Part shown: in pieces, positions 3,284 to 15,884 of the stretch
How the letters are laid out: every line of letters begins with the position of its first letter
How positions within the stretch are numbered: the first letter of the stretch is position 1
Assembly (NCBI RefSeq): GCF_009789575.1
Contig: NZ_CP046908.1
Location: forward strand, 248,001-312,000
DNA from: Stappia indica
GTDB taxonomy: Bacteria > Pseudomonadota > Alphaproteobacteria > Rhizobiales > Stappiaceae
DNA: 64,000 nt
Direction: 5' to 3'
Position numbers and translations under genes: made by a program
The notes under the pieces: generated by a model
What the model was told of the DNA's origin: nothing
Databases searched by the model: none
Seen by the model: the letters and a program-made list of their open reading frames with translations, nothing else

Positions 3284-3636
3284 GGCCTTGCAAAAACCCG
3301 GTGAAAGATGGCGTTGGTACAGGGTTTCGGCTCATATCCCTCCCCTGCCGCGCGGTCAACCGCGCGCCCTCTCCACCCGGCCTGGGCAGCGCTTTTCCCT
3401 TCGGGAACCGGACGGCGTCCGGCGCGTTCTGCAGGGGACCCGGATTCGGAGCGCCCTTGCGACAATGCGGATGCGGGCGCAACTATTTTGCGATGCACAA
3501 TCTGCATGGCTGCCGTGCACAATCTGCGCTTTTTTTCGGGGGGTGAAAAAAGTATCTCTTGGTCATCGGATCGGAGCGCTGACGCGGGATGACCCAAGCA
3601 GCCAACTCCCGCACAGATCGTGCATATGAGGATGCC
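3284..3636. other. Non-coding region upstream of queA and the first DUF1127 gene
   Basis: Divergent intergenic stretch. It contains a spaced direct repeat TGCACAATCTGC at 3494-3505 and 3516-3527 and a T/G-rich stretch at 3529-3540. I see no convincing promoter boxes or tRNA. An in-frame ATG at 3589 could extend the first DUF1127 protein by 16 residues. Confidence 0.6.
3494..3527. promoter_or_regulatory. Two direct repeats TGCACAATCTGC, 22 bp apart
   Basis: Identical 12-base copies at 3494-3505 and 3516-3527 repeat every 22 bp, close to two helical turns, as expected for a protein binding twice on one face of DNA. They lie about 110-140 bp upstream of the DUF1127/cuckoo-RNA island and about 210 bp upstream of queA. 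The binding protein is unknown. Confidence 0.4.
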
Positions 3637-3786
3637 ATGTTCGACTCTCTCGCCCGCAAGTACCGCAGCTGGCGTACGTACCAGACCACCGTTTCCGAGC
3701 TGTCGCGGCTCTCGACCCGCGAGCTCAACGATCTCGGCATCGCCCGCGGCGACATTCGCTTCGTCGCCCGTCGCGCCAGCCGTTAA
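3637..3786 (+). CDS. DUF1127 small protein, copy 1
   Basis: A 49-residue protein, almost entirely one DUF1127 domain: LARKYRSWRTYQTTVSEL then LSRLSTRELNDLGIARGDI and a basic tail ARRASR. These tiny arginine-rich proteins are widespread in alphaproteobacteria; in Rhodobacter the homologue CcaF1 has been described as RNA-binding and is co-transcribed with CcsR small RNAs. I chose the ATG at 3637 (GAGG at 3628-3631) because both paralogues start at the equivalent residue; an ATG at 3589 would give 65 residues. Three anti-Shine-Dalgarno hairpins follow its stop codon. Confidence 0.85.
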   Translation: MFDSLARKYRSWRTYQTTVSELSRLSTRELNDLGIARGDIRFVARRASR

Positions 3787-3795
3787 CAGTTCACG

Positions 3796-3922
3796 TTCAA
3801 GGAGATAGACCTCCTCCCCTGTCTCCTGACGTGTTGCCGACGGGATATCCTCCTCCCAATCCCGTTCGGACATTGCGACGCCCGCCGGTACCTCCTCCCA
3901 CCGGCGGGCGTTCGCATTTTTT
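3796..3922 (+). ncRNA. Cuckoo/CcsR-like small RNA array 1 (three hairpins)
   Basis: Three hairpins each present the anti-Shine-Dalgarno sequence CCTCCTCCC in the loop. Hairpin 1: stem 3800-3807 with 3820-3827, motif 3810-3818. Hairpin 2: stem ACGGGAT/ATCCCGT at 3840-3846 and 3859-3865, motif 3849-3857. Hairpin 3: 11-bp stem at 3879-3889 and 3900-3910, motif 3891-3899, followed by a T-run that makes it a terminator. Location behind a DUF1127 gene matches the cuckoo/CcsR family known from Rhizobiales and Rhodobacter, where the RNAs are processed from the DUF1127 message. Confidence 0.85.
3879..3922 (+). terminator. Rho-independent terminator of DUF1127 copy 1/array 1
   Basis: Stem CGCCCGCCGGT/ACCGGCGGGCG (3879-3889, 3900-3910) followed by TTTTTT at 3917-3922. 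The loop carries the third CCTCCTCCC motif, so the terminator hairpin is itself a functional element of the RNA. Confidence 0.8.
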
Positions 3923-4103
3923 GCGTGCATGCCGCAAGGCCGGGCGACCCCGGCGAAAGCCGCAAGGCGGGCATGCGAAAATAGCGCCTCACAAACGGCG
4001 CGAAGCACTCCATATGAGTGCCACCGAACGATGACGCAGCGCAGCATAGCGTGCGAAGAGCGGCCGCTTCGGGAGCAATAAGAAGAACATCACGGAGTTG
4101 GAA

Positions 4104-4256
4104 ATGTTCACGACCCTCGCTCGCAAGTACCGCAACTGGCGTGCCTACAACAGCACCGTCACCGAGCTTTCTCGCCTGACCCCGCGCGAGCTTGACGATC
4201 TCGGCATCTCGCGTGGCGAGATCCCGGCCGTCGCTCGCCGTGCGGTGATCGGCTAA
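4104..4256 (+). CDS. DUF1127 small protein, copy 2
   Basis: A 50-residue DUF1127 protein with ATG at 4104 and GGAG at 4094-4097. Sequence features are LARKYRNWRAYNSTVTEL, LSRLTPRELDDLGISRGEI and a basic tail ARRAVIG, closely matching copy 1, so the two are likely duplicates. The second hairpin array begins 14 bases after its stop codon. No terminator follows that array, so transcription could run on towards copy 3. Confidence 0.88.
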   Translation: MFTTLARKYRNWRAYNSTVTELSRLTPRELDDLGISRGEIPAVARRAVIG

Positions 4257-4269
4257 CCAATCACGGACC

Positions 4270-4383
4270 GGGGCGCGACCCTCCTCCCACGCGCCCCAGA
4301 TCGTGCACCGACGGGTCTTCTCCTCCCGGACCCGTCAGGCAAAAGCGCCGCCCGCCGGTTTCCTCCTCCCGACCGGCGGGCGG
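4270..4383 (+). ncRNA. Cuckoo/CcsR-like small RNA array 2 (three hairpins)
   Basis: Three hairpins: stem GGGGCGCG/CGCGCCCC (4270-4277, 4290-4297) with motif CCTCCTCCC at 4280-4288; stem ACGGGTC/GACCCGT (4311-4317, 4329-4335) with a variant motif TCTCCTCCC at 4319-4327; and a 12-bp stem (4348-4359, 4372-4383) with the motif at 4362-4370. Stem sequences differ from array 1 while pairing and loop motif are kept, which supports a structured RNA. Unlike arrays 1 and 3 there is no T-run after hairpin 3. Confidence 0.83.
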
Positions 4384-4556
4384 ACGCGGCCCCCGCAAGA
4401 CGGGGACCGACAGGGAGCGGGCCGGCGACAGCCGCCACACAGGAACACCACATCGCCGGGCAGAGGCACCAACGGACCAGCGCAAGAACGCGCGGCGTCC
4501 GGCAGGCAGCCCGTCCGGTTCGACCACCCCCGGTTTCGCACTCAAGGACAACGACC

Positions 4557-4706
4557 ATGATCAACACGCTCATCCGCAAGTACAATTCCTGGCAGCAGTA
4601 CCGTCGCACCTATGACGAGCTGTCCCGCCTCTCCAATCGCGAGCTCAGCGACCTGGGCATCGGCCGCGGCGATATCGACTACATCGCCCGCAGCAACCAT
4701 CGCTAA
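4557..4706 (+). CDS. DUF1127 small protein, copy 3
   Basis: A 49-residue DUF1127 protein: IRKYNSWQQYRRTYDEL, LSRLSNRELSDLGIGRGDI, tail ARSNHR. The ATG at 4557 is preceded by AAGGA at 4544-4548. More divergent than copies 1 and 2. A strong terminator follows at 4741-4770 rather than a hairpin array directly; the third array stands about 190 bp further on with its own possible promoter. Confidence 0.87.
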   Translation: MINTLIRKYNSWQQYRRTYDELSRLSNRELSDLGIGRGDIDYIARSNHR

Positions 4707-4740
4707 GCGCTCGCTCCGCCTCGCGGGGGCACCGCAGCCG

Positions 4741-4770
4741 AAAACGCCGTCCCATTCGGGGCGGCGTTTT
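4741..4770 (+). terminator. Rho-independent terminator after DUF1127 copy 3
   Basis: A 13-bp stem AAAACGCCGTCCC/GGGGCGGCGTTTT with loop ATTC; the stem ends in TTTT. The A-run on the left side makes it potentially bidirectional. Confidence 0.85.
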
Positions 4771-4852
4771 CATTTAAGTCGCTGAAATACCTGATCTTTC
4801 AAATTTTTATGCTGCTCTGCACAAAAAGCGGGGCTGATATGCAAGATCGTCT

Positions 4853-4881
4853 CTTTAAATAGACGCGGGACTCGCCCATAT
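4853..4881 (+). promoter_or_regulatory. Possible heat-shock (RpoH-type) promoter for array 3
   Basis: CTTTAA at 4853-4858, a 17-bp spacer, then CCATAT at 4876-4881, resembling the -35 and -10 elements of alphaproteobacterial RpoH promoters (CTTGAA and CCATNT). It would start transcription near 4888, just before hairpin 1 of array 3. Known CcsR RNAs of Rhodobacter are RpoH-driven. The -35 match is imperfect. Confidence 0.35.
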
Positions 4882-4891
4882 CAGGGGCAAC

Positions 4892-5012
4892 GGAGCCAAG
4901 CGATCCTCCTCCCACGCTTCGCTCCCGTTCAGGCCGGTGTTCCTCCTCCCTCACCGGCCCTCCAAAACGACGCCCACCGGATCCTCCTCCCACCGGTGGG
5001 CGTTCGTTTTTG
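4892..5012 (+). ncRNA. Free-standing cuckoo/CcsR-like small RNA array 3 (three hairpins)
   Basis: Hairpin 1: GGAGC/GCTCC plus AAGCG/CGCTT (4892-4902, 4915-4925), motif CCTCCTCCC at 4905-4913. Hairpin 2: GGCCGGTG/CACCGGCC (4932-4939, 4952-4959), motif 4942-4950. Hairpin 3: CGCCCACCGG/CCGGTGGGCG (4971-4980, 4992-5001 region), motif 4983-4991, with a T-run at 5007-5012. No DUF1127 gene immediately precedes it; it is separated from copy 3 by a terminator, so it looks like an independent small-RNA gene. Confidence 0.82.
4965..5012 (+). terminator. Rho-independent terminator of array 3
   Basis: Hairpin 3 of the array, extended by AAAACG (4964-4969) pairing with CGTTTT (5005-5010), ends in TTTTTT at 5007-5012. 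It can act in both directions. Confidence 0.75.
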
Positions 5013-5200
5013 GACCTGGCCCTTTCCCCCGACATCTCTTCGCATGCACTGCCGCTCCGGCGCGAGCTCCCTTGCGCGGACCTCTCCCTGCGTCTTCCCG
5101 GGCAAGGCGAAGCCGGAGGTCCGGGGTGACCTCGGTGGGGATGCGAGATTGTGCCTTTCGCGCGGACGCTGTCGTGGGCGCAGACCAGCCACCCTCCCAG

Positions 5201-5255
5201 GACGTCATCCCGGCCAAGCGCAGCGCAGAGCCGGGATCCATTGGCAACCCCGGCA
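5201..5255 (+). repeat. 55-bp dispersed repeat, copy 1
   Basis: Begins GACGTCATCCCGGCC and ends CAACCCCGGCA; identical over 55 bp to 5678-5732. It contains an imperfect inverted repeat (CCCGG...CCGGG). Confidence 0.85.
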
Positions 5256-5677: not shown

Positions 5678-5732
5678 GACGTCATCCCGGCCAAGCGCAG
5701 CGCAGAGCCGGGATCCATTGGCAACCCCGGCA
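5678..5732 (+). repeat. 55-bp dispersed repeat, copy 2
   Basis: Identical over 55 bp to 5201-5255, in the same orientation, 477 bp further on; sequence on both sides diverges. Confidence 0.85.
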
Positions 5733-5903
5733 ATCGCCAGCGTTCGCGGGGCCAGCCACCCTCTCCGCCCGTCTTCCCGGCCGCTACGGTGACGGGCGAC
5801 TTTGCGCAGGACTCGCTTTCGTCTTCCCGGGCGAGCATCGCACGCCCCGGGATGACGAAGAGAGGATTGCGTACAGAAGAGGACAAACGCAACGGGCGCG
5901 CCC

Positions 5904-15013: not shown

Positions 15014-15539
15014 TCCGATCGTCCTGACCTCGGACCTCTCCCGGCACGGCGCGGCGCGCAAGCCTCGCGTCCTGCCCGCAGCAGCGTGACGGCGGGTTCC
15101 CCGCCTCGCCGTCATGCGCTCCCCCGGCCCCCTCTTCACTCTCCTCCCGTGCCGCTTCGCGCCTGCCCGCGCCCGATCACCGACCTTTCACCGGCCTTTC
15201 ACCTTCGCGCGAGCTTCGCCGTTTGCGCGCGCCTGCCTCTTGGCCCGCGTCCGGGCGCTCCCCATCTTATCTTTCAGGGTTGCAGGGGATGCGTGCCGCG
15301 CGGTCCCCGGCTGGACCGGCACCATGCCGGTCGCGGGCAGAAAGCAGGAGCGTTTCGCATCCGCGAAGCGTCCGGAACCGCCGAAAGGCCATGCGATTGA
15401 TGCATGGCTGGCATGCGAAAGCATGCCCGGCTTATACGCAACTCGCTGCAATCGTTCACAAAAGCAGCACAGGCCGTTCACGGAATACTGAACCGGCAAA
15501 GCCTTGCCAATCCCCTCGGGATACTACATATGGCGGTGC
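15014..15539. other. 525-bp non-coding stretch
   Basis: No convincing gene. Contains a hairpin TGACGGCG/CGCCGTCA (15087-15094, 15107-15114) that may end the upstream transcript, though without T-run, and several ATGCAT/GCATGC-rich palindromic steps at 15389-15427. A promoter for paralogue 2 should lie at the right end. Confidence 0.55.
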
Positions 15540-15884
15540 ATGATGACGATTCACAAAATTCATCAGCTGTCGACTCCGATCGCCCTTTGGGGTGCCGGCG
15601 TCGTGCTGCTTGTCGCAACGCTCGGGGCCGGATTGGCCGCCTCGGATGTCGACGCCGCGGCGGAAACCGCTGCCAACATGCAACCTTCTGCCCACGAGCG
15701 CGTTGTCTCGGCAGGCAAGGACGAACGTGCCATCGCGCAAACCGTCGAGGCGGTGTGCGGCGGCATCATCTTCCGGGAAGAGGATCCCGATTGCTTCGCC
15801 GGCACCCCGCCGCAGAAGCATCCGGTGATCGCCGAGCCGGCGACGGGCAACCAGGCGCTGCCGGTGCAACCCTCCGGATCGTGA
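15540..15884 (+). CDS. Small exported C-x11-C protein, paralogue 2
   Basis: A 114-residue protein starting MMTIHKIH with one hydrophobic segment (residues about 14-34) followed by an exported region with two cysteines in C-x11-C spacing (CGGIIFREEDPDC). The C-terminal tail is Pro/Gln-rich. GGCGG at 15532-15536 is the likely RBS; the second ATG at 15543 is equally usable. Middle of a run of three paralogues. Function unknown. Confidence 0.7.
   Translation: MMTIHKIHQLSTPIALWGAGVVLLVATLGAGLAASDVDAAAETAANMQPSAHERVVSAGKDERAIAQTVEAVCGGIIFREEDPDCFAGTPPQKHPVIAEPATGNQALPVQPSGS

Follow-up and report, generated by a model that had tools for sequence, protein, structure and literature searches.

DUF1127 genes and anti-Shine-Dalgarno hairpin arrays in an island of Stappia indica, with related arrays in viral contigs

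The island and its hairpin arrays

The window analysed here, 64 kb in length, comprises bases 248001-312000 of the 5.1-Mb single-contig genome of Stappia indica. Within it, a 1.4-kb stretch holds three short DUF1127 genes together with three arrays, each made of three hairpins; counted from a predicted operator at 3492, the island extends to 5012. Five matches in the genome exceed the Pfam cut-off for DUF1127 (PF06568, 23.3 bits), three of them in the island and two elsewhere. The genes and hairpins of the island are as follows.

3637-3786, forward strand: DUF1127 gene 1 (49 amino acids; PF06568, 54.1 bits)
3788-3922, forward strand: array A, three hairpins by folding, with CCTCCTCCC loops and T6 after the last (Rfam ar14, 65 bits at 3788-3916)
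4104-4256, forward strand: DUF1127 gene 2 (50 amino acids; Pfam, 58.2 bits), of gene-1 type by protein tree and read as an inserted copy
4260-4388, forward strand: array B, three hairpins by folding, one loop being TCTCCTCCC, without terminator (ar14, 47.6 bits, below the cut-off)
4557-4706, forward strand: DUF1127 gene 3 (49 amino acids; Pfam, 57.5 bits), read as the last gene of the ancestral layout, separated from its old promoter
4740-4771, forward strand: terminator-like hairpin 3′ of gene 3 (14 pairs, loop of 4; -26.8 kcal/mol, z -5.5)
4885-5012, forward strand: array C, stand-alone, three hairpins by folding, with CCTCCTCCC loops and a T-rich end (Rfam ar14, 71 bits at 4885-5008)

The original prediction for this DNA had counted three DUF1127 genes, three three-hairpin arrays and nine loops with one variant, and had described one array as gene-less, one as lacking a terminator and one gene as lacking an adjacent array. 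The count agrees with Pfam, the folds and a motif scan. The unusual members are array C, with no gene directly 5′ of it; array B, which lies 3′ of gene 2, with no T run longer than 3 in the window between genes 2 and 3; and gene 3. Array A lies 3′ of gene 1 and runs into T6.

The loops start, all on the forward strand, at 3810, 3849, 3891, 4280, 4319, 4362, 4905, 4942 and 4983. Eight read CCTCCTCCC and one, at 4319, reads TCTCCTCCC; the eight exact copies of CCTCCTCCC in the window all lie inside the island. A pattern of three such loops matched the genome three times, each time in the island, and the reversed-pattern control of these loop-triple searches is not independent, as its letters occur in the same loops. 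With one mismatch allowed, the window holds 37 matches against 28.0 expected (standard deviation 5.4), a number reached by 6 of 100 shuffles. Because this barely exceeds chance, the signal lies in the clustering and the hairpins, not in the total count.

The anti-Shine-Dalgarno (anti-SD) sequence of 16S rRNA is CCUCC. The loops had originally been described as the 3′ end of 16S rRNA in reverse, which is incorrect: they run in the same sense as the anti-SD, and thus imitate the 16S tail and should be able to pair with Shine-Dalgarno (SD) sequences. Their interpretation as anti-SD loops stands.

Arrays A, B and C fold at -65.9, -74.6 and -65.1 kcal/mol (z -8.2, -4.8 and -6.8), and for none of them did any of 200 shuffles fold as well. 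All nine loops are open, each of the three hairpins per array presenting an open CCUCCUCCC core, which in one loop of array B is UCUCCUCCC. We extended the folding to 245 loops from the window's own locus and 40 fetched ones, 41 Stappiaceae loci in all. The core was fully open in 243 loops, compared with 65 when the flanks were shuffled, and the mean energy was -21.4 versus -11.1.

The stems change while their pairing and the loops are kept, as had been predicted; covariation in two sets of arrays bears this out. In 41 gene-linked arrays, 82.3% of cells pair (shuffled 72.1%), both sides had changed in 33 of 43 pairs (shuffled 22.1), and the covariation score was 0.320 against 0.172. The 24 free arrays gave 79.4% (shuffled 67.5%), 33 of 42 pairs (shuffled 24.6), and 0.395 against 0.206. 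The score was reached by none of 500 shuffles in either set and fell far lower when the structures were shifted by 1-3 columns; these figures are inflated by relatedness, and the structure was taken from the window's own fold. One array of different plan (L045), retained in alignment A2, is poorly aligned.

The arrays had been assigned to the cuckoo/CcsR kind of RNA, and this assignment is upheld: arrays C and A pass the cut-off of the Rfam family ar14 (RF02344, 58.8 bits), and passages of PMC10253847 link short DUF1127 genes with such RNAs, naming the arrangement the CIN1 locus.

A simple scan of the window found no sigma-70 consensus promoter and did not list the island's terminators, including the hairpin at 4740-4771; elsewhere it returned 2 terminator-like sites, with 1.8 expected. 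A direct repeat of about 55 bases, seen by eye, lies between array C and glmU, at about 5199-5255 and 5681-5735.

Predicted promoters and probable origin of the layout

From the features upstream of each part, the island would be transcribed as three units: gene 1 with array A (unit 1), gene 2, array B and gene 3 (unit 2), and array C alone (unit 3). Promoters did not figure in the original prediction. The predicted promoter elements are as follows.

3492-3520, forward strand: predicted LsrB/VtlR-type operator of unit 1, with TGCA-N6-GCAT at 3494-3507 and an exact GCAT-N3-TG-N3-T at 3504-3516
3552-3557, forward strand: -10-like element of unit 1, GTATCT (CTATCT or a variant in relatives), with the start estimated at about 3564
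3950-3978, forward strand: weak operator relative upstream of gene 2 (-10.3 bits; two mismatches to GCAT-N3-TG-N3-T by eye), homologous to the last-gene promoter of the two-gene Stappia locus L038
4010-4015, forward strand: -10-like element of unit 2, CCATAT
4816-4844, forward strand: operator relative upstream of array C (7.8 bits; two mismatches to GCAT-N3-TG-N3-T by eye)
4876-4881, forward strand: -10-like element of unit 3, CCATAT, present in 14/14 Stappia loci

In all three units, exactly 31 bases separate the operator or operator-like site from the -10-like element. Upstream of gene 1, TGCACAAT-N2-GCA and a third half-site are kept in 14/14 Stappia loci. TGCA-N6-GCAT is the LsrB box given for the NfeR1 promoter in a passage of PMC10746234, the GCAT-N3-TG-N3-T consensus comes from a passage of PMC8844928, and, compared by eye with the Brucella VtlR motif read backwards (as printed in part of PMC12595884), the gene-1 site shares 13 of its 15 bases. 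A 29-base profile built from gene-1 sites was run over both strands of the 64 kb. It places the site upstream of array C as the second-best independent site of the window, that of gene 2 being far weaker.

The exact consensus precedes 25 of 39 Stappiaceae first genes and occurs in 33 of 80 named DUF1127 loci, where 0.3 and 0.4 were expected. The named loci are the best 80 of at least 105 gene-1 relatives and not a random sample; 74 lie outside Stappiaceae. With a profile trained on Stappiaceae first units, 68 of the 80 (62 of the 74) have a site at E < 0.01, and at least two loops lie near the DUF1127 gene in 70. Two records, L153 (titled Bacillus subtilis SK6B4) and L149 (a Xylophilus metagenome-assembled genome), carry DUF1127-array loci of Rhizobiales type and are probably foreign contigs.

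A candidate regulator is encoded in the same genome. trxB is followed by a LysR protein of 298 amino acids (L073, L006:283-1179) with Pfam LysR domains; among the matches listed (25 of 55), no NCBIfam model exceeded its cut-off. Behind this gene (within L006:283-1632) lie one CCTCCTCCC hairpin with a T-rich end, both seen by eye, as well as a 25.2-bit operator. This stretch likely encodes an AbcR-like RNA; no Rfam family scored over its cut-off there. The order trxB-vtlR-abcR, given for Agrobacterium in a passage of PMC7486931, is the same as the order here. A Rfam suhB match was considered as the AbcR place and rejected, as it lies beside an inositol-monophosphatase-like frame (by eye).

Elsewhere in the window, a strong operator-like site at 15388-15416, with an exact GCAT-N3-TG-N3-T at 15402-15414, precedes frame 15543-15884, which is predicted to encode a small exported protein and lies within a row of small frames. 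This stretch is well kept only in the five three-cassette Stappia; any match was found in 9 of 14 genomes.

We compared the island with loci taken from 39 of 70 other genomes with a motif match. Nine of 14 Stappia loci share a layout of two genes and two arrays, in which gene 1 with array A and a last DUF1127 gene are followed by a separate array C, 203-992 bases past the last gene's stop. The other five (the window, L031, L035, L037 and L041) hold an extra gene and array in between. Loss of the loop motif in close relatives, which would speak against the original prediction, is nearly absent: array A keeps three loops in 14/14 Stappia loci, array C in 13/14 and array B in 4/5, the exceptions being L040, where the middle loop of array C is altered, and L041, where the first hairpin of array B is lost.

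In the protein tree, built from 49-50 amino acids and without support values, gene 2 is of gene-1 type. The region upstream of it instead matches the one before the last gene of the two-gene locus L038 (score 114; best of 200 shuffles, 36). The upstream region of the last gene scores above its own shuffles against that of gene 2 in 8 of 9 two-gene relatives and in 0 of 5 three-gene loci. A gene-1-type protein behind a last-gene-type upstream region points to insertion: most likely, on sequence comparison, a copy of the gene-1 cassette was inserted between the last gene's promoter and the last gene in these five loci. The odd triple cassette of the original prediction is present, and is read here not as three damaged cassettes but as the layout of the genus with one inserted cassette.

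The remaining oddities follow from this layout. Array B needs no terminator because transcription should continue into gene 3; the longest T run between genes 2 and 3 is 2-3 in 5/5 three-gene loci, as against 6-7 after array A. Gene 3 lacks an array because array C would be a gene of its own, its CCATAT lying in the same place in 14/14 loci. The island itself has moved as well, since the five three-gene loci adjoin queA and tgt, which do so in 0 of 36 other fetched stretches, and L038 and L039 adjoin uvrA. A tree of the flanks was tried for dating the extra cassette and is unusable, the flanks not being orthologous. A search for wide spread in the class used a strict pattern of three CTCCTCCC, which misses variants: 3 of 142 genomes matched, of which G091 and G206 are simple repeats by eye and only the window's own match is real.

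Proposed action and its alternatives

The RNA family, its loops and stems, the DUF1127 link and the VtlR/LsrB targets are already published, in passages of PMC10253847, PMC12501420, PMC3927594, PMC10746234, PMC7143759, PMC12595884, PMC7486931, PMC8844928, PMC4843759 and PMC8307010. To these the present analysis adds the protein-array-protein unit with its history, a common promoter layout, and the phage replication modules that carry arrays, described below.

NfeR1 of Sinorhizobium meliloti, the ar14 RNA (RF02344), likewise has three CCUCCUCCC-loop hairpins with variable stems and an LsrB-type box upstream. According to the passages concerned, it requires LsrB (PMC10746234) and, acting through three loops of this sequence that are redundant, silences the mRNAs of ntrB and of two transporters (PMC10746234, PMC7143759). 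It is a stand-alone gene, whereas arrays A and B follow DUF1127 genes, B falls under the family cut-off and C has a weakened operator. The cuckoo RNAs of the CIN1 locus, as described in part of PMC10253847, follow a short DUF1127 gene as arrays follow genes 1 and 2; Stappia differs in that genes and arrays number three each, one array lies between two genes, and array C is alone. In the CcaF1-CcsR1-4 system of Rhodobacter sphaeroides, the DUF1127 gene and its RNAs share one transcript, as is predicted here, and passages of the same paper describe four CcsR RNAs behind one gene with an RpoHI/RpoHII promoter, whereas gene 1 of Stappia has an LsrB/VtlR-type site. Finally, in the VtlR/LsrB regulon of Brucella, Agrobacterium and Sinorhizobium, a LysR regulator encoded behind trxB activates DUF1127 genes and small RNAs, and Stappia shows the same trxB-LysR gene order and the exact consensus at gene 1. 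In the relevant passages of those papers the DUF1127 genes figure as proteins, and no arrays behind them are named; such arrays are present in Stappia.

Taken together, we consider it probable that the island produces three trans-acting anti-SD RNAs of the ar14/NfeR1/cuckoo kind and three DUF1127 proteins from three units. Unit 1 would be switched on by the LsrB/VtlR-type LysR regulator, and unit 2 would have been born when a copy of the gene-1 cassette landed behind the last gene's promoter. Each open CCUCCUCCC loop would pair with the ribosome-binding site of a target mRNA and block the start of translation; the loops would be redundant, and the number of units would set the dose. Homology to NfeR1 implies that the arrays should block ribosome binding likewise, and by this analogy they likely do so on metabolic and transport mRNAs, the targets being probably those of transport and catabolic genes. 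The DUF1127 protein probably either assists in processing the array RNA or takes part in the same response to nutrients and stress.

A sequence scan for start sites complementary to the loop (GGGAGGAG) found 43, against 12 for the reversed pattern. Behind the first 30 of the 43, 27 proteins were scanned, of which 7 are parts of ABC, TRAP or MFS transporters; 16 proteins behind 22 control sites included 1 transporter.

Several observations weigh against parts of this explanation. The transport class is not significantly enriched (7/27 versus 1/16, Fisher p 0.22). The window holds 8 exact matches to the operator consensus with 6.7 expected; as the consensus alone is not rare, it is place and conservation that carry the case for gene 1. 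The exact consensus was not found upstream of units 2 and 3, and among Stappiaceae it precedes none of 37 last genes and just 2 of 27 free arrays; for this reason we assign only unit 1 to LsrB/VtlR. The CCATAT elements of units 2 and 3 also resemble RpoH promoters in sequence (consensus from a passage of PMC4843759), and CcsR is RpoH-driven, from an RpoHI/RpoHII promoter, in the passages of PMC10253847. The groES control carries a CIRCE element (by eye) and gives no RpoH yardstick, and CCATAT resembles both promoter types. Array B lies under the ar14 cut-off and, since 47.6 bits falls short, is filed with this family by descent and structure only. Further pair types in the gene-linked arrays are fewer than in the shuffled ones (64 versus 72.7). 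As to the insertion, the match of the L039 promoter to the gene 2 upstream region does not rise above its shuffles (36 versus 40), and the gene-1 promoters of L034 and L036 also exceed their own shuffles against that region.

We weighed other explanations against these data. The arrays might act as a general brake, in which copies of the 16S tail cover SD sequences widely and lower translation under stress, with no defined targets. The loop does contain the 16S anti-SD core, and the surplus of complementary start sites and the lack of a significant target class suit this account. It is nonetheless improbable, given that NfeR1 acts on particular mRNAs in the passages cited above (PMC10746234, PMC7143759) and that the nine-base loop demands GGGAGGAGG, which is longer than an ordinary SD sequence. 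We hold it equally improbable that the arrays serve chiefly to bind the DUF1127 proteins, for titration or processing, with mRNA pairing secondary. Passages of PMC10253847 report that CcaF1, itself a DUF1127 protein, matures with RNase E the CcsR RNAs encoded behind its gene; against this, in part of PMC12501420 the Agrobacterium DUF1127 proteins act via the kinase PhoR by protein contacts and RNA binding was not seen for Salmonella YjiS, and some arrays have no DUF1127 gene nearby.

Less probable still is a role in cis only, with the arrays ending or protecting DUF1127 mRNAs and the loop sequence incidental. Arrays A and B do lie directly behind DUF1127 genes, T6 ends array A, and pairs of gene and array are common among the named loci. 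Yet the loops stay constant while the stems vary, array C and many relatives have no preceding gene, array B is predicted to end no transcript, and NfeR1 is, in the passages concerned, a free trans-acting RNA (PMC10746234). Chance, low complexity or a dispersed repeat beside genes, which the near-chance number of one-mismatch matches might suggest, is ruled out for practical purposes by the open loops in 41 loci, the folds, the covariation, the Rfam scores and the conserved place and spacing.

Arrays in viral contigs and on plasmids

IMG/VR was scanned for three CCTCCTCCC at array spacing, and 56 contigs matched (L228-L283, e.g. L229, L255 and L276). Ten were removed by eye as repeats or because their loops were not all open (L234, L235, L239, L247, L254, L257, L263, L272, L273 and L277), L235, L247 and L263 being borderline. 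The 46 kept contigs hold 22 distinct arrays and form 33 clusters at 98% identity. In 40 of them the array lies 32-184 bases from a phage helicase gene and convergent with it, on two backbone groups (22 and 18 contigs). Ten neighbouring proteins from L276 and L255 all match phage families, among them the helicase phrog_16, processivity factor phrog_947, Cas4-type exonuclease phrog_1990 and primase phrog_906. Of the helicase-linked contigs, four were scored in Rfam, and all four exceed the cut-off for ar14, at 70.8-81.2 bits.

The best operator-like site precedes the first loop by exactly 86 bases in 40/40 of the helicase-linked contigs. Its strength differs between the groups, one having a median of 20.3 bits and the other being weak (-7.9), and the exact consensus is present in 31 of 40. 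Arrays of this type are further present on 19 plasmid records of rhizobia.

Two array queries against 50,697 phage records gave no match, and in the related phages 16-3, AP-16-3, NV1.1.1 and RHph_TM3_3_14B, where the helicase is present, no array was found in the 7.6-9.7 kb examined. At the place where other phages carry the array, the first three show a conserved non-coding stretch of about 280 bases next to the helicase (L284:2403-2680, L286:4702-4982 and L287:5702-5994), with TACAAATTTGTCAAC twice. A literature search found nothing on phage-borne arrays; section 2.4 of PMC3927594 mentions mobile elements in the neighbourhood of such loci, and nowhere in that paper does the word phage occur.

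From these contexts we put forward, tentatively, that the arrays and the LsrB/VtlR-type promoter form a transferable module. In Stappia it would have multiplied and entered a protein-RNA-protein operon, and in phages related to Rhizobium phage 16-3 the replication region, where it may supply a ribosome-site-blocking RNA of the host's kind under the host's own regulator. The arrays in phage replication modules suggest that phages may turn the same RNA on their hosts.

For the bacteria themselves, two lines treated separately in the papers found, DUF1127 genes as VtlR/LsrB targets and the cuckoo/NfeR1 anti-SD RNAs, are now joined; our literature search found no paper linking VtlR/LsrB with DUF1127-linked arrays. 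If gene 1 and array A form one LsrB/VtlR-driven transcript, effects ascribed to the protein may belong to the RNA. The five Stappia with the extra cassette and the nine without it provide a natural dosage series.

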